Origin: Chloroflexota bacterium
GTDB taxonomy: Bacteria > Chloroflexota > Chloroflexia > Thermomicrobiales > JADLAZ01
Length of the DNA: 8,095 nt
NCBI GenBank assembly: GCA_020849725.1
Contig: JADLAZ010000277.1
Coordinates: forward strand, 1-8,095
Direction: 5' to 3'
Shown here: piece by piece, positions 3,258 to 7,801 of the stretch
Layout: each line of letters starts with the position of its first letter
Position numbering within the stretch: the first letter of the stretch is position 1
Notes under the pieces: model-generated
What the model was told of the DNA's origin: nothing
Database searches by the model: none
What the model saw: only the letters and a program-made list of their open reading frames with translations
Translations under genes and position numbers: made by a program

Positions 3258-3650
3258 TCAGTTTCTCCGCGCGACCGGACACGATGGGTCGCCGGCGCAG
3301 CTGCGGATCGCGCCGAGCAACTCGTCGACCGGGCAATCCTTCAGCAGGTAGCGACTGCCGCCCGCTGCCAGCGCATTCGTCAGGTGCGTGCTGTACACGG
3401 TCAGGAAGATGACCGACGTCGACGGCGCCAGGCGCTTGATCTGGCGCGTTGCTTCGATGCCGTCCAGCCGCGGCATGCCGATATCTGTCAGTACGATCTG
3501 CGGCCGCAACTGCACCGCCAGCTCGACCGCTTCCTGACCGTCGGCTGCCTCGCCGACGACGTCAAGATCCGGCTGACCTTCCAGCAGCGCCGTCAGGCCA
3601 TCGCGGATAATCGGGTCGTCGTCGGCTACCAGGACTGTGATCGGACGCAC
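3258..3650 (-). CDS. Stand-alone response regulator receiver domain protein
   Basis: The 130-residue product is essentially one complete CheY-like receiver. It has the acidic cluster Asp10-Asp11-Asp12 (VADDDP), phospho-acceptor Asp56 (VLTDIGMP), Thr84 (FLTVYS) and Lys104 (YLLKDCP), so it should be phosphorylatable. It ends just after helix alpha5 with no output domain. The receiver most resembles those of NarL/LuxR-type regulators, such as its divergent neighbour. The GTG at 3650 is preferred because AGGAG (3656-3660) lies 5 bases upstream and the receiver fold starts two or three residues later; an in-frame ATG at 3671 is possible. No histidine kinase is present, so the partner is unknown. 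It may relay phosphate, compete with the neighbour for a kinase, or be a truncated regulator. Confidence 0.88.
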   Translation of the reverse strand: MRPITVLVADDDPIIRDGLTALLEGQPDLDVVGEAADGQEAVELAVQLRPQIVLTDIGMPRLDGIEATRQIKRLAPSTSVIFLTVYSTHLTNALAAGGSRYLLKDCPVDELLGAIRSCAGDPSCPVARRN

Positions 3651-3655
3651 ACCGG

Positions 3656-3660
3656 CTCCT
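3656..3660 (-). promoter_or_regulatory. Ribosome binding site deciding the GTG start at 3650
   Basis: AGGAG on the minus strand, 5 bases before GTG. It lies inside the longer open frame from the ATG at 3671 and argues for the shorter start. Confidence 0.6.
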
Positions 3661-3703
3661 GACTGGGGCATCACCACCGCCGAACGCAGTCGGCTTCGCC
3701 CGT

Positions 3704-3791: not shown

Positions 3792-3815
3792 GACGACAAG
3801 CAATGCCACGCCGGC
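3775..3815. repeat. Inverted repeat flanking the -10 box
   Basis: GCCGGCGT (3775-3782) and ACGCCGGC (3808-3815) are perfect complements. Alternatively GCCGGCG/CGCCGGC pair and the inner TTGC (3782-3785) / GCAA (3800-3803) also pair. The TATACT box at 3786-3791 sits in the centre. The left arm is upstream of the predicted transcription start, so this would act on DNA and not as an RNA hairpin. Confidence 0.45.
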
Positions 3816-3859
3816 TGTCGGCGGGTCGCGCAGGGCTGGACCGGTGGAGGGATGATCGA

Positions 3860-4522
3860 ATGGATGTCGCGACCACCCCCATCCGACTGATCATCGCCGA
3901 CGATCACCCGGTGGTGCGCGAGGGCCTGGTAGCGATTCTGGAGACGCAGCCGGATATCGACGTGCTGGCCGAGGCGTCGGACGGCGTGCGCGCGGTTGAG
4001 CTGGCGGTGCTGCACCAGCCAGACGTGATGCTGATGGACTTGCAGATGCCAAACCTGAACGGCGTCGACGCCATCCGGCAGATCAAGGAGCGCGTGCCGG
4101 CCACGGAGATCGTCGTGCTGACGACCTACGACAGCGATGAGTACATTTTCAAGGGCATCGAGGCGGGGGCGCGCGGCTACCTGCTCAAAGGCGCTGGCAA
4201 GAACGAGCTGTTGAACGCCATTCGGGCCGCCAGCCGCGGCGAGGCGCTGCTGCCGCCGGTCGTCGCCGGCAAGCTGGTCGAGCGCTTCACGCAGATGGCG
4301 CAGCGCCAGACGGTCGAGGGCGACGAGGCGCTGACCGAGCGCGAGCTTGAGGTGCTGGAGTTGATGGCGCAAGGCGCGCGCAACAAGGAGATCGCCCACG
4401 ATCTCAGCATCACCGAGCGCACCGCCAAGGCGCACGTCAGCAGCATTCTTGGCAAGCTGGCGGCCAGCGACCGCACCGAGGCGGTGACGATCGCCCTGCG
4501 CAAGAAGCTGATCTCGCTGTAG
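3860..4522 (+). CDS. NarL/FixJ-family response regulator (receiver + LuxR HTH)
   Basis: This is a 220-residue, standard-length two-domain regulator. The receiver is residues 8-125, with acidic pair Asp14/Asp15, phospho-acceptor Asp60 (MLMDLQMP), Thr88 (LTTYD) and Lys110 (YLLKGAG). The output is a LuxR/GerE-type HTH at 158-215 (LTERELEVLELMAQG, then NKEIAHDLSITERTAKAHVSSIL). All phosphorylation residues are present. It is expected to bind DNA as a phosphorylation-induced dimer; closest in style to the LiaR/DesR group, but targets are unknown. The ATG at 3860 has GGAGGG (3846-3851) 8 bases upstream. An in-frame ATG at 3803 lies between the predicted promoter and that ribosome site and is disfavoured. 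It is divergent from the single-domain receiver, and no sensor kinase is adjacent, so it is an orphan in this window. Confidence 0.93.
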   Translation: MDVATTPIRLIIADDHPVVREGLVAILETQPDIDVLAEASDGVRAVELAVLHQPDVMLMDLQMPNLNGVDAIRQIKERVPATEIVVLTTYDSDEYIFKGIEAGARGYLLKGAGKNELLNAIRAASRGEALLPPVVAGKLVERFTQMAQRQTVEGDEALTERELEVLELMAQGARNKEIAHDLSITERTAKAHVSSILGKLAASDRTEAVTIALRKKLISL

Positions 4523-4524
4523 CC

Positions 4525-4558
4525 CGCGCCAGGGTCAGTCCGATCGGGTGGTGGCGCG
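4525..4558. terminator. Possible hairpin at the convergent ends of the regulator and epimerase genes
   Basis: CGCGCCA (4525-4531) and TGGCGCG (4552-4558) can pair across a 20-base loop that contains the palindrome CCGATCGG (4540-4547). The stem lies partly within the last codons of the minus-strand gene. No T-tract is present, so the call is weak. Confidence 0.25.
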
Positions 4559-5488
4559 CGGCGTGGCCGGAGCCGGCTCGCCCAGCAACACCGCCCGCAG
4601 CGCGGCCTCGTGTGTCGGGTAGCGAAAGCGGTAGCCGAGGCGCTCGGCGACAGCCGGCACGATCTTCAGGCTGGCCAGCACGACATCGGCTTGCTCGCCC
4701 AGCAGCACGCGCATGCCGATGGCCGCGCCCGGCAGCCAGGTCGGCCGGCCGAGCAGCCGCCCGATGGTGTGACTGAAGGTCGCCATCGTCACTGGCTCCG
4801 GGCCGGCAGCGTTGATCGGGCCACTGGCCGCCGAGTGCTCCAGCGCCAGCCGGATCAGCCCGATCTCGTCGTCGATGTGGATCCAGGGCGTCCACTGCTC
4901 CGGCCGGCCCATCACCCCGCCGAGAAAAAAGCGGAACGGCAGGGCGATCGGTGTCAGCGCCCCTCCTTCCGGCGACAGGACGATGCCGCTGCGGATGAGC
5001 GCCACGCGCGCACCATGCGCCTCGGCCGCCTGCGCCGCCGCTTCCCAGGCGACGACGACGGCGGCCAGGAAGTCATGGCCCGCCGGAGCCGTCTCTGGCA
5101 GCGCCGCATCACCGCCGTCGCCGTAGTAGCCGACGGCCGAGGCATTGATCAGCACCCTTGGCCGGTTAGGGGCTGCCAGCGCGCCAGTAAGGGCCGTCGT
5201 CGCGGTGATGCGGCTGTTGCGGATGCGGCGCTTGCGCGCTGCCGTCCACGGCAGACCGGCGACCGTCTCCCCGGCCAGGTTCACCACCGCGTCCGCGCCG
5301 TCCAGCGCCGCCTCCCAGCCCCCACCTGGCTGCTGATCCCAGGTGATGACCTCGGCGCCGGCCGGCAGGCGCGGCCGCGCCCGCGTCGCGTTGCGCGACA
5401 GCACGACCACCGCGTGCCCATCCGCCAGCAGCGATCGCGTCAGCGCCCGCCCGATCAGGCCGGACCCACCGGCCATCACCACCCGCAT
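4535..5488 (-). CDS. TIGR01777-family NAD(P)-binding epimerase/sugar-nucleotide-dehydratase-like protein
   Basis: This is a 317-residue extended-SDR protein of the YfcH/SDR39U1 (TIGR01777) family. It has an N-terminal Rossmann dinucleotide motif GGSGLIG (residues 7-13), NLAGE at 70-74, the active-site-region NASAVGYYG (115-123), WTPWIHIDD (199-207) and INAAGPEPV (225-233). The C-terminal DUF1731-type segment includes TWLPG and ALRAVL (to about 301). Length and motif order are normal for the family. Its physiological substrate is not established, so no reaction is assigned. The ATG at 5488 has AGGAGG (5496-5501) 7 bases upstream. The open frame extends to an ATG at 5659, but that extra part overlaps the opposite-strand leader of TerC and has no SDR character. 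It converges on the response regulator with only 12 bases between stop codons. Location should be cytosolic. Confidence 0.93.
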   Translation of the reverse strand: MRVVMAGGSGLIGRALTRSLLADGHAVVVLSRNATRARPRLPAGAEVITWDQQPGGGWEAALDGADAVVNLAGETVAGLPWTAARKRRIRNSRITATTALTGALAAPNRPRVLINASAVGYYGDGGDAALPETAPAGHDFLAAVVVAWEAAAQAAEAHGARVALIRSGIVLSPEGGALTPIALPFRFFLGGVMGRPEQWTPWIHIDDEIGLIRLALEHSAASGPINAAGPEPVTMATFSHTIGRLLGRPTWLPGAAIGMRVLLGEQADVVLASLKIVPAVAERLGYRFRYPTHEAALRAVLLGEPAPATPRATTRSD

Positions 5489-5594
5489 CGCCAAGCCTCC
5501 TGTGTCGTCCGTGCGTCCGGGGCCTGTATCACGTGGGTGCCGAACTGGTGGATGACCGCGCTGGTTACCGACCGACGAATTCCGACTGCGCGAC

Positions 5595-5622
5595 TTGCAT
5601 CTTTCGGGCCATCGTGTAGGAT
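5595..5622 (+). promoter_or_regulatory. Candidate promoter of the riboswitch-terC transcript
   Basis: TTGCAT (5595-5600), a 16-base spacer and TAGGAT (5617-5622) give a predicted start near 5629, about 40 bases before the aptamer closing stem. The -35 is a weak match (3/6) and the -10 is 4/6. The same TAGGAT hexamer is proposed as -10 for the receiver gene. Confidence 0.4.
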
Positions 5623-5669
5623 TAGGACCAGGCGTCGGCGCCGGCCGGTGGCTCGACAATTCAGGCGAT

Positions 5670-5819
5670 GTCCTCCCGCGAGGGGAGTAGGCAGGCGGTC
5701 GTCACGGCCGCCGGTGGTGCTCGTCAAGCCGAGATGCCGCGCAATGCGCCGTCTCCGGGCACCCCGAGGAGCCTGTCCGCATCAGCGCGGACCCCTTCAG
5801 CGAGACCTCCGGTGAGGAC
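5670..5819 (+). promoter_or_regulatory. yybP-ykoY (manganese) riboswitch aptamer
   Basis: The leader carries the two most conserved stretches of the yybP-ykoY class. AGGGGAGTAG (5681-5690) is on the 5' side, and CCTTCAGCGAGACCTC (5794-5809) is on the 3' side. They are held together by a closing stem GTCCTC (5670-5675) / GAGGAC (5814-5819) and by GAGG (5680-5683) / CCTC (5806-5809). Between them are a GGCGG/CCGCC hairpin (5694-5698 / 5708-5712) and a GTCCGC/GCGGAC hairpin (5775-5780 / 5787-5792) stacked on a GAGG/CCTT stem. In characterised members the two conserved loops dock and bind Mn2+, turning on exporters of the TerC, MntP or P-type ATPase families. The terC gene starts 84 bases downstream, which is the expected context. 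Motif and context agree; a covariance-model score could not be computed here. Confidence 0.85.
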
Positions 5820-5854
5820 TGACCAGCAGCGCCGCGCGGCGCTACGGGCCAGTC
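5817..5854 (+). promoter_or_regulatory. Candidate riboswitch expression-platform hairpin
   Basis: GACTG (5817-5821) pairs with CAGTC (5850-5854) and CC (5823-5824) with GG (5847-5848). On top, AGCGCC (5828-5833) pairs with GGCGCT (5838-5843) around a GCGC loop. Its 5' arm shares bases 5817-5819 with the 3' arm of the aptamer closing stem, so full formation of both is mutually exclusive. No T-run follows, so it could act as a non-canonical terminator or by re-pairing the leader. Confidence 0.5.
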
Positions 5855-5856
5855 GT

Positions 5857-5884
5857 CCGATCGTGCCTGCCCGGCAACGATCGG
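5857..5884 (+). promoter_or_regulatory. Strong leader hairpin just before the terC ribosome site
   Basis: CCGATCGT (5857-5864) pairs with ACGATCGG (5877-5884), and GCC (5865-5867) with GGC (5873-5875) after a single bulged A, giving 11 base pairs with a 5-base loop. It ends 8 bases before GGGAGG. There is no T-tract. It may be part of the switching region or affect ribosome access. Confidence 0.45.
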
Positions 5885-5892
5885 CACACGGA

Positions 5893-5898
5893 GGGAGG
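5893..5898 (+). promoter_or_regulatory. Ribosome binding site for the GTG start of terC
   Basis: GGGAGG lies 5 bases before GTG at 5904. It supports the GTG, whose product begins VGTEIWLWVGF (first residue Met), as expected at the start of TerC proteins. No suitable ATG exists nearby. Confidence 0.65.
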
Positions 5899-5903
5899 CA
5901 CGG

Positions 5904-6866
5904 GTGGGGACTGAGATCTGGCTGTGGGTTGGGTTCACCGGGCTGGTGCTGGGCATGCTGGCGCTCGACCTGGGCGTGTTTCACCGCCAGGCCCACACCG
6001 TCTCGATGCTCGAGGCGGCGGTGTGGAGCGGCGTCTGGATCGGCCTGGCGCTGGCCTTCAATGGCGTGCTGCTGTGGTGGCGCGGCGCCGAGGTCGCCTT
6101 GCAATTCCTGACCGGCTACCTGATCGAGAAATCGCTGTCGGTCGACAACATCTTCGTCTTCGTGCTGCTGTTCACCGCCTTCGCTGTGCCGGCTCGCTAC
6201 CAGCACCGCGTGCTCTTCTGGGGCATCCTGGGCGCGCTGATCATGCGCGCCCTCATGATCGCGGCCGGCGCGGCGCTCATCAAAGAGTGGCACTGGGTCA
6301 TCTATGTCTTCGGCGTCTTCCTGATCGTCACCGGCATCAAGATGGTGCTGGGCAAGGGCCACGCGGTCGCTCCCGAGCATCATCCGCTGCTCCGACTGGT
6401 CCGGCGCGTGCTGCCGGTCACGACGGACTACCACGGCCAACGGTTCTTCGTGCGCCAGGCCGGCGTGCTGATGGCAACGCCGCTGTTCCTGGTGTTGCTC
6501 ATGGTCGAGTTCACCGACCTGATCTTCGCGGTGGACAGCATCCCGGCCATCTTCGCCATCACCCAGGACCCGTTCATCGTCTACACCAGCAATGTGTTCG
6601 CGATCCTGGGGCTGCGCTCGCTTTACTTCCTGCTGGCGGGCGTCATCCACCGCTTCCACTATCTGAAACTTGGCCTGGCGGGCGTACTGGCGTTTGTCGG
6701 CGTCAAGATGCTCCTCAGCGATACGACCATCGCAATCTCGACACCGGTCTCGCTGCTCGTGATTGGCGCCATGCTCACAATCGCGATTGCCGCCTCAATG
6801 GTCTGGCCGCCGGCAACGGTCGAAGGCGCACCCGAACCATCCGCCGCGGCGCGGCCCACACCCTGA
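5904..6866 (+). CDS. TerC-family integral membrane protein, probable Mn2+ exporter
   Basis: The 320-residue polytopic membrane protein belongs to the TerC/Alx/YkoY family. Hydrophobic segments start at about residues 5, 38, 82, 104, 130, 187, 206, 228, 255 and 279. The two family signatures are present: EKSLSVDNIFVF (75-86) and MVEFTDLIFAVDSIPAIFAIT (200-220). Conserved membrane acidic residues include Asp22, Glu75, Asp81, Glu202, Asp205 and Asp211, likely to line the ion path. Family members export Mn2+ or support metalation of secreted proteins; older annotations say 'tellurium resistance', which is not implied here because no ter operon is present. The Mn2+-type riboswitch directly upstream supports a manganese-efflux role. 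The C-terminal 20 residues are a Pro/Ala-rich tail. It is monocistronic, ending before a large hairpin. Confidence 0.95.
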   Translation: MGTEIWLWVGFTGLVLGMLALDLGVFHRQAHTVSMLEAAVWSGVWIGLALAFNGVLLWWRGAEVALQFLTGYLIEKSLSVDNIFVFVLLFTAFAVPARYQHRVLFWGILGALIMRALMIAAGAALIKEWHWVIYVFGVFLIVTGIKMVLGKGHAVAPEHHPLLRLVRRVLPVTTDYHGQRFFVRQAGVLMATPLFLVLLMVEFTDLIFAVDSIPAIFAITQDPFIVYTSNVFAILGLRSLYFLLAGVIHRFHYLKLGLAGVLAFVGVKMLLSDTTIAISTPVSLLVIGAMLTIAIAASMVWPPATVEGAPEPSAAARPTP

Positions 6867-6897
6867 CGTGCGACCGCCGGTCACCGACCGAAACGCA

Positions 6898-6940
6898 GCG
6901 CGCCGCCAGTGGCCCGCTCATGGCGGGACCGGCGGCGCGC
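6898..6940. terminator. Bidirectional terminator-like hairpin after terC
   Basis: GCGCGCCGCC (6898-6907) and GGCGGCGCGC (6931-6940) are perfect 10-base arms. CCCGC (6913-6917) and GCGGG (6923-6927) extend the stem around a 5-base loop. It lies between the convergent stops at 6866 and 6962. On the minus strand the stem is followed by TGCGTTTCGG, a short T-tract; on the plus strand there is none. Confidence 0.6.
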
Positions 6941-6961
6941 CTGATCGAGCGGCGACGGTGA

Positions 6962-7801
6962 CTAGATCGACATCTCCTGGTCGTCGTCGTTGAACTCCTC
7001 GTCCTCGATCTCCGGCTCTTCCTCGGTCTCGTCGGCCTCGTCGGCATCCTCGTCGTCGGCGGTCAGCACGTCACCCTCCTCGAGCAAGGAGTCGGTCACG
7101 AAGTCGCGCCGGATGTAGGCCCGCGGCGTCGTGCCGCGCACACGCGTCGGGAAGGAGAGCTGGTCATTGAGGCTGGGGTCCTGGAAAGTCTCACGCAGGA
7201 TCACGCGCAGCGTATCCTGCTCCAACTCGACCGCCGCCGCCTCGTAGCGGTTGCCGTCGCGGTTGAGGCGCACGATGCGCTCGGCGATGCGCGGCTCGAC
7301 CTCGCCTACGTAGACGCCATCGAGCGTGTGGATCGTCACACACTCGGCCACGTCGTTGATGCGCACCTCCAGCGGGTCGCCCGCCAGCACGCGCGAGCGC
7401 ACGGCCACCTCGGCTGGCCGCACCAGTGCGACGATCGTCGTCTTGCCGGTCTCCTCGATGAAGGCATAGGACCGGACCACACCGTGGCCGGTGGCCGGCT
7501 CGTCCGGCAGGTCGCGCAGCGTGTGCAACCGCTCCAGATTGCGCTGGGCGATCAGGTTGTGCGGCTCGATCTCACGCGCACGCACGTAGGCAGCGTATGC
7601 CTCGCGATGCCGCCCCAACTCCGACAGCGCCTTGCCGAGCCGGTTCTGCGTCTCGGCCGAGTTGGGGTCGAGTGCCTGCAACTCGGTATTCGCGGCCAGC
7701 GCATCGTCCCAGCGGCCGGCCTTGGCCGCTGCCAGCGCCCGCTCAATCAACGTCCGGCGCTGTTTGGCGCTGCTATCCATCGGTCGCGGGGTAGCCACCA
7801 T
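6962..7801 (-). CDS. TPR-repeat protein with uncharacterised middle domain and acidic tail
   Basis: This is a 279-residue soluble protein with no signal peptide or membrane segment. Two tetratricopeptide repeats occupy about residues 14-82: AAKAGRWDDALAANTELQALDPNS, then the second repeat with its conserved Gly/Ala/Pro positions up to REIEPHN. Residues about 108-240 are a beta-rich-looking region I cannot assign (SYAFIEETGKTTIVALV, VYVGEVEPR). Residues 248-275 are strongly acidic (Asp/Glu runs). TPRs mediate protein contacts, so a scaffold or adaptor is likely, but no function is claimed. The ATG at 7801 has AGGAG (7814-7818) 12 bases upstream, which is rather far. The in-frame ATG at 7780 has no ribosome site, and an upstream in-frame ATG at 7903 would overlap the end of miaB. 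It lies 70 bases downstream of miaB on the same strand and may be cotranscribed. Confidence 0.87.
   Translation of the reverse strand: MVATPRPMDSSAKQRRTLIERALAAAKAGRWDDALAANTELQALDPNSAETQNRLGKALSELGRHREAYAAYVRAREIEPHNLIAQRNLERLHTLRDLPDEPATGHGVVRSYAFIEETGKTTIVALVRPAEVAVRSRVLAGDPLEVRINDVAECVTIHTLDGVYVGEVEPRIAERIVRLNRDGNRYEAAAVELEQDTLRVILRETFQDPSLNDQLSFPTRVRGTTPRAYIRRDFVTDSLLEEGDVLTADDEDADEADETEEEPEIEDEEFNDDDQEMSI

Follow-up and report, generated by a model that had tools for sequence, protein, structure and literature searches.

The window analyzed here, a stretch of 8,095 nucleotides from a Chloroflexota bacterium of the Thermomicrobiales (contig JADLAZ010000277.1), carries a terC gene with a complete reading frame, whose product matches both PF03741 (185.2 bits) and TIGR03718 'R_switched_Alx' (435.7 bits, cut-off 246.4), bearing out the TerC exporter gene named in a preliminary description of this DNA. 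Upstream of terC, on the opposite strand, lies a TIGR01777 oxidoreductase gene (4535-5488), so that 5489-5903 forms a leader between divergent genes. In addition to the structured element described below, this leader holds a ribosome-binding region and a weak candidate promoter (Table 1); a stricter promoter scan of 5500-7000 found none. Elsewhere in the window, two response regulators form a divergent pair, one with only a receiver domain in Pfam (3258-3638, minus strand) and the other with a receiver and a GerE/LuxR domain (3803-4522, plus strand).

At least 581 TerC relatives were found, and the best 80 loci from genome contigs were kept as a comparison set. The window has a high GC content, and its TerC indicates Chloroflexota. 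Among these best 80 loci, the closest terC belongs to the Thermomicrobiales MAG YX1bin8 (locus L001; 75% identity in the best segment), followed by Herpetosiphon and other Chloroflexota, and the closest other TerC proteins (P0002 and P0003), from JGI metagenome contigs, are 74 and 73% identical.

Anatomy of the terC leader

The class motifs sought in the leader (L1, L3 and the L1 3' strand) and the helix names are those generally ascribed to the yybP-ykoY class, and they were chosen before being tested. All three features are present: GGGGAGUAG on the 5' strand of L1 (5682-5690), CRAGAC on its 3' strand (5801-5806), and the metal-site feature UCRWCA opposite CGG (5721-5726 and 5756-5758). P1, P2, P3 and P4 all form, as a four-way junction, in a fold in which P1 is forced, and a covariance model built without the window (R1, below) aligns P1-P3; in the unconstrained fold of the full leader, P1 is replaced by other pairing.

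The preliminary description had reported two conserved loops within a closing stem of exact complements, 84 bases before terC. The spacing (5820-5903, between the stem and the GTG at 5904) and the outer complement (GTCCTC at 5670-5675 with GAGGAC at 5814-5819, read directly) are as it stated. Both loop motifs are there as well (AGGGGAGTAG, 5681-5690, and CAGCGAGACC, 5798-5807), but together they make up a single internal loop, L1, the first being its 5' strand and the second its 3' strand; a second conserved loop does exist, but it is L3 (UCGUCA 5721-5726, CGG 5756-5758), which that description missed. As to conservation of the stem in relatives, the inner run of P1 (5680-5683 with 5806-5809) covaries, while the outer run (5670-5675 with 5814-5819) lies outside the pairs of the relatives' model.

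Table 1. Positions, in the window, of terC and of the elements of its leader.
Feature	Position	Strand	Detail or basis
Candidate sigma-70-like promoter, weak (TTGCAT-16-TAGGAT, 7/12)	5595..5622	+	Promoter scan
Whole aptamer, yybP-ykoY class	5670..5819	+	Full-length match to a model built without the window
P1, the switch helix, 5' strand; pairs with 5806-5819 as three runs totaling 13 bp	5670..5683	+	Fold
L1, 5' strand, GGGGAGTAG	5682..5690	+	9 of 9 columns match the consensus
P1.2 position, G5691 instead of C	5691..5692	+	Alignment; fold
P2 hairpin, GGCGGUCG/CGGCCGCC	5694..5712	+	Model alignment, fold; covaries in relatives
P3 enclosing L3: GGUGC 5716-5720/GCACC 5759-5763, inner GAGAUG 5731-5736/CGUCUC 5750-5755	5716..5763	+	Model alignment, fold; helices covary in relatives
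L3 motif, 5' strand, UCGUCA	5721..5726	+	Matches the consensus; last C and A identical in 98 of 98 other rows
L3, 3' strand, CGG	5756..5758	+	Alignment to relatives
P4 hairpin, GUCCGC/GCGGAC	5775..5792	+	Fold; least well paired helix in relatives
L1, 3' strand (AGCGAGAC), then P1, 3' strand, CCTCCGGTGAGGAC	5799..5819	+	Model alignment, conserved columns
Candidate anti-Shine-Dalgarno strand (P1 bases), can pair with 5885-5894	5806..5814	+	Suggested by the fold
Spacer hairpins at 5817-5854 and at 5857-5884, neither with a U-tract behind it	5817..5884	+	Sequence, fold
Ribosome-binding region, CACACGGAGGGAGG, GGAGG at 5890-5894	5885..5898	+	Sequence; fold
terC	5904..6866	+	GTG start, 320 aa; TIGR03718 R_switched_Alx subfamily, PF03741

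A class member that RF00080 does not detect

The preliminary description had proposed a search with Rfam family RF00080 as the confirming test and had counted the lack of a covariance-model hit against the class. RF00080 gave no match, either in the window at E ≤ 1 or in 5600-5910 at E ≤ 10 (Infernal, Rfam 15), and no Rfam family at all matched the window at E ≤ 1; in 5600-5910 at E ≤ 10, 6C (minus strand, 17.3 bits) and a microRNA (14.8 bits) appeared at chance level. This result discriminates poorly and is weak counter-evidence, since the published Mn2+ riboswitch of E. coli mntP (L089:5462-5558) likewise falls below the cut-off, at 41.6 bits against a gathering score of 45, which is a curation threshold and not a structural feature. 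At that gathering cut-off, RF00080 had no match in the loci of 20 relatives, and at E ≤ 0.5 it matched three of seven such loci (L007, 33.8 bits; L002, 31.0; L015, 24.7) and none of the other four, L001 included. Among 15 genomes with loci of this kind, 11 had a match at E ≤ 10 and none a match above the cut-off; among 14 named control genomes, nine had a match, two of them above the cut-off. RF00080 is apparently blind to much of the share that Chloroflexota have in the class.

R1 was built from an alignment, A1, of 22 leaders picked by motif (21 from terC loci, together with E. coli mntP) with the window excluded; the leaders were aligned with MAFFT, which shifted the L3 motif of the mntP leader relative to the Infernal alignment, and the model was given a specified structure. 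R1 matched 5670-5819 over model positions 1-123 of 123, with 34.0 bits, a GC content of 0.72 and an E-value of 5.5e-7, rough as all E-values of this model are owing to a short calibration, and this was its sole match in the window at E ≤ 10. Over the 80 terC loci (512,787 bases), R1 gave 31 matches at E ≤ 1, comprising the 21 training leaders and 10 new ones, and 28 of these fall upstream of the matched terC at a distance of no more than about 550 bases; of the remaining three, L001 contributes a second terC leader, L026 a site on the minus strand and L064 a site downstream. With 28 of 31 matches near terC and 10 from outside the training set, the background at 34 bits looks low.

The structure underlying R1 covaries strongly in relatives. 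In A1, 84.3% of 491 cells are paired, compared with 61.6% in shuffles (0 of 500 as good), double-change cells number 120 against 41.3 in shuffles, and sliding the partner by 1-3 columns drops pairing to 36-43%. The P1 pair adjoining the invariant G-C is G-C in 16 of the A1 leaders, A-U in five and C-G in one. A larger alignment of 99 rows (97 sites from the phylum survey described below and the window, with one site appearing twice) has 91.2% of 2147 cells paired and a covariation score of 0.708 against 0.179 in shuffles, figures that lean towards the model because the rows were fitted to R1. P2 and P3 covary in both alignments, and P4 is weakly conserved. Agreement in L1 is partly built in, as the training leaders were selected by L1 motifs; this does not apply to L3, to the helices or to how well the window fits.

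The window has 26 of the 27 columns that are conserved in ≥85% of the 98 other rows, including all those of L1 and L3. L1, L3 and the L1 3' strand were combined into a relaxed pattern of three parts, which over 530,883 bases (the window, the 80 terC loci and the E. coli mntP region) gave 19 matches, the one in the window and 18 elsewhere, against none in each of five first-order Markov reshuffles; since a stricter first pattern, requiring a G before the L3 motif, had missed the window and was relaxed afterwards, it is the held-out model that serves as an independent test. None of 200 dinucleotide shuffles folds as well as the 158 nucleotides at 5666-5823 (z -2.45), and the whole 274-nucleotide leader (5630-5903) folds unremarkably (z -1.43, 20 of 200 shuffles as good). 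An unrelated attenuator or a chance GC-rich fold, as the base composition, the unremarkable fold of the full leader and the missing Rfam match might suggest, is largely refuted by the held-out match and the 26 conserved columns, and sits poorly with the placement of R1 matches ahead of terC; we regard it as extremely unlikely.

Collectively, the held-out match, the covariation in relatives, the conserved columns, the gene family downstream and the cation-exporter context of the relatives' sites uphold the assignment to the yybP-ykoY class made in the preliminary description. The leader genuinely belongs, as a divergent member, to a known riboswitch class and stands where that class is expected, a membership that we regard with high confidence, and the computations establish the class, anatomy and gene family of the element. 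Its divergence is apparent in its bit score, the third-lowest of 99 R1 matches. The sole mismatch at a conserved column is 5691, where the window has G and 95 of the 98 other rows have C. This change abolishes the canonical P1.2 pair with G5800, which 95 of 99 rows have as C-G, and the P1.2 position that follows, C-A in the window, is unpaired as well. A shifted register of P1.2, G5691-C5801 with C5692-G5800, appears in the fold with P1 forced. P1 itself is 13 bp long in the window, among 117 leaders scored in which 6 is the commonest length and two others reach 14. In our judgement, P1.2 pairing is a supporting and not a defining feature of the class.

These departures bear on three further readings. 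The leader might be a decaying riboswitch, a descendant of the class that no longer switches, in which P1.2 and the terminator have been lost; the broken pair at 5691 and the low score are consistent with this, but the conserved columns are otherwise intact in both L1 and L3, all four helices can form and the terC frame is complete, and we consider decay improbable. Alternatively, the leader could represent a structurally distinct Mn2+ aptamer with P1.2 lost or shifted, a doubled P1 in its place, the ribosome-binding site locked from a distance across the two spacer hairpins and no terminator, which we think rather doubtful. Lastly, the aptamer may sense something other than Mn2+ alone, such as another divalent metal or pH: P1.2 and P1 depart from consensus, and alx of E. 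coli responds to pH. Alkaline pH is reported to favor Mn binding by the mntP riboswitch (PMC11647493). With the core bases of L3 unchanged and the gene belonging to the Alx/TerC metal family, this last reading is highly improbable.

Distribution in Chloroflexota and genes behind the sites

R1 was searched against 301 genomes of Chloroflexota, the phylum of the L001 genome, and at E ≤ 0.01 found at least 98 sites in at least 82 genomes, while in a comparable draw of 301 genomes RF00080 matched at least 18 at E ≤ 0.01 and at least one above its cut-off; as only 8 (RF00080) and 11 (R1) candidates were scored per genome, the genome counts are lower bounds and the comparison is rough. The L001 genome, for example, yielded RF00080 at E 0.0042 with 87 candidates scored and no match in the 301-genome search. 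R1 misses sites too, since six of the 18 RF00080 genomes (G087, G158, G174, G182, G253 and G291) are not among its 82. Within the class to which the L001 genome belongs, R1 sites occur in at least 84 of 158 genomes.

Most of the sites stand before genes of cation-transporter families. The comparison of genes covered 97 phylum sites, all but the L002 leader, which was already in the set, and 33 of them precede TerC by tblastn. At 65 other sites (64 from the phylum and the second L064 site), the downstream reading frame, chosen mechanically, encodes a P-type ATPase in 27 cases, a Na/Ca exchanger in 12, a VTT protein in five, GDT1 in four and TerC in three, the remainder having another or no listed product. 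R1 sites also stand before Zn_peptidase_2, CitMHS/ArsB-type and VTT (DedA) genes (L150:300-1097, L154:15-1292, L108:708-1484 and L115:1651-2340), none of which is known as a classical Mn2+ exporter. One locus (L206, G328:C537) has four sites within 3.2 kb, at 736-853, 1796-1914 and 3570-3687 on the minus strand and 3804-3922 on the plus strand, preceding one Peptidase_M50 gene, two SpoOM genes and one P-type ATPase, in a genome with eight sites. SpoOM would be a surprising addition to the regulon if its gene does lie behind a Mn2+ riboswitch, and genes such as SpoOM, metallopeptidases and VTT/DedA are candidate parts of the manganese response. Pairs of sites lie back to back on opposite strands in four genomes, at G330:C28 (7017-7132, minus, and 7452-7570, plus), G319:C45 (10952, minus, and 11197, plus), G325:C449 (18429, minus, and 18656, plus) and G210:C12 (73155, minus, and 73737, plus), so that a single manganese response may be common to the genes on either side.

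The presence of the class in this phylum is probably not new, as a 2013 survey that included Chloroflexi lists yybP-ykoY among motifs found in >75% of taxonomic groups (PMC3766115); among the titles listed by a literature search, none was a study devoted to Mn2+ riboswitches of Chloroflexota. By its class, the leader in the window makes manganese the metal assigned to this TerC exporter, in a lineage that has been little studied.

Read-out of the switch and comparison with known systems

According to two published reports, Mn2+ stabilizes the switch helix P1.1 and prevents a competing terminator (PMC6754395; PMC11087558), the Mn2+-sensing A being A41 in L. lactis and A48 in X. oryzae (PMC6754395), and a third describes E. 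coli mntP as a translational ON switch in which the ribosome-binding site is unmasked and Rho is also involved (PMC11647493). At 77 of 97 Chloroflexota sites, and in 90 of 123 leaders of the whole set, the 3' strand of P1 is scored as belonging to a terminator (at the Chloroflexota sites, as part of the 5' arm of a stem that has a T-rich tract behind it), both counts being approximate, like those for Shine-Dalgarno pairing, because the GAC-motif anchor is visibly off in L004, L151, L152, L157, L159 and L184. This arrangement marks P1 as the switch helix. In several leaders that lack the tract, such as L056, L165, L168, L172 and L179, inspection by eye showed the P1 3' strand closely trailed by a complement with a GGAGG-like sequence and then a start codon.

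For the window, we consider it probable, at roughly three chances in four, that the leader is a Mn2+-sensing yybP-ykoY riboswitch that switches on a TerC/Alx-type exporter at high Mn2+. By analogy with the class, Mn2+ would be the ligand, L1 would dock onto L3 and the switch would act in the ON direction. The four-way junction would place L1 (5682-5690 with 5799-5806) beside L3 (5721-5726 with 5756-5758), and Mn2+ bound where the two meet would stabilize P1. Without Mn2+, the 3' strand of P1 (5806-5814, CCUCCGGUG) would be free to pair with 5885-5894 (CAC-A-CGGAGG), covering the Shine-Dalgarno sequence and turning translation off; with Mn2+, 5806-5814 would stay in P1 and the Shine-Dalgarno sequence would be released.

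Folding of successive transcripts gives a P1-pair probability of 0.68 with the transcript end at 5823, 0.12 at 5860 and 0.72 at 5890; at 5903 it is 0.00 and the anti-Shine-Dalgarno pair reaches 0.997, and this loss of one pairing with gain of the other looks like a translational ON switch. Several results run counter to this read-out. P1 is not steadily favored before the Shine-Dalgarno sequence emerges, as the value at 5860 indicates; 43 of 2000 spacer shuffles give a duplex as strong as the anti-Shine-Dalgarno one (-17.6 kcal/mol), as do other aptamer 16-mers, some of them stronger; and in a fold from 5804 to just beyond the start codon, pairing between the Shine-Dalgarno sequence and the P1 strand has a probability of only 0.20. 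Moreover, forcing P1 costs 7.8 kcal/mol and leaves the Shine-Dalgarno sequence partly re-paired unless the spacer hairpins are also held. Among relatives, such pairing exceeds 0.5 in three of 17 terC leaders without a terminator, the window included, against two of 34 with one (approximate counts). The translational read-out in the window, deduced solely from folding, is about an even bet.

The same aptamer could instead act on transcription, either through Rho or through the terminator-like hairpin at 5817-5854, which lacks a U-tract and would compete with the outer P1 strand (5814-5819). This hairpin has bases in common with the P1 3' strand, terminators involving that strand are the commoner arrangement among relatives (by the approximate count above), and an effect of Rho is reported for the mntP riboswitch of E. 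coli (PMC11647493). Against a transcriptional read-out stand a scan of 5500-7000 in which nothing resembling a terminator with a T-run was found, and a ribosome-binding site complementary to the P1 strand, and we regard it as possible though not favored.

The leader can be placed beside four known systems. The NiCo riboswitch is described as having a similar overall H-shaped architecture (PMC6754395); the window matched no Rfam family at E ≤ 1. The E. coli mntP leader shares with the window its class and a score under the Rfam cut-off, and differs in that its exporter is MntP and its P1.2 bases are canonical (GUAGCC ... GGCGAGACC). The terC leaders of MAG YX1bin8 have the same aptamer core as the window; unlike it, they score 102.1 and 91.8 bits with R1, both being in its training set, and have a stem with a T-rich tract downstream. 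At this locus (L001), two terC genes lie in tandem, each with its own riboswitch (2797-2914 and 5045-5179) and its own stem and tract. Compared with the yybP-ykoY class as represented by RF00080 ('Manganese'), the window differs in escaping that model, in a P1.2 broken at 5691, a 13-bp P1, a long stretch from P3 to P4 and the lack of a U-tract terminator, and it shares with the class both strands of L1, the L3 motif, the four-way layout of P1-P2-P3-P4 and an Alx/TerC gene downstream.
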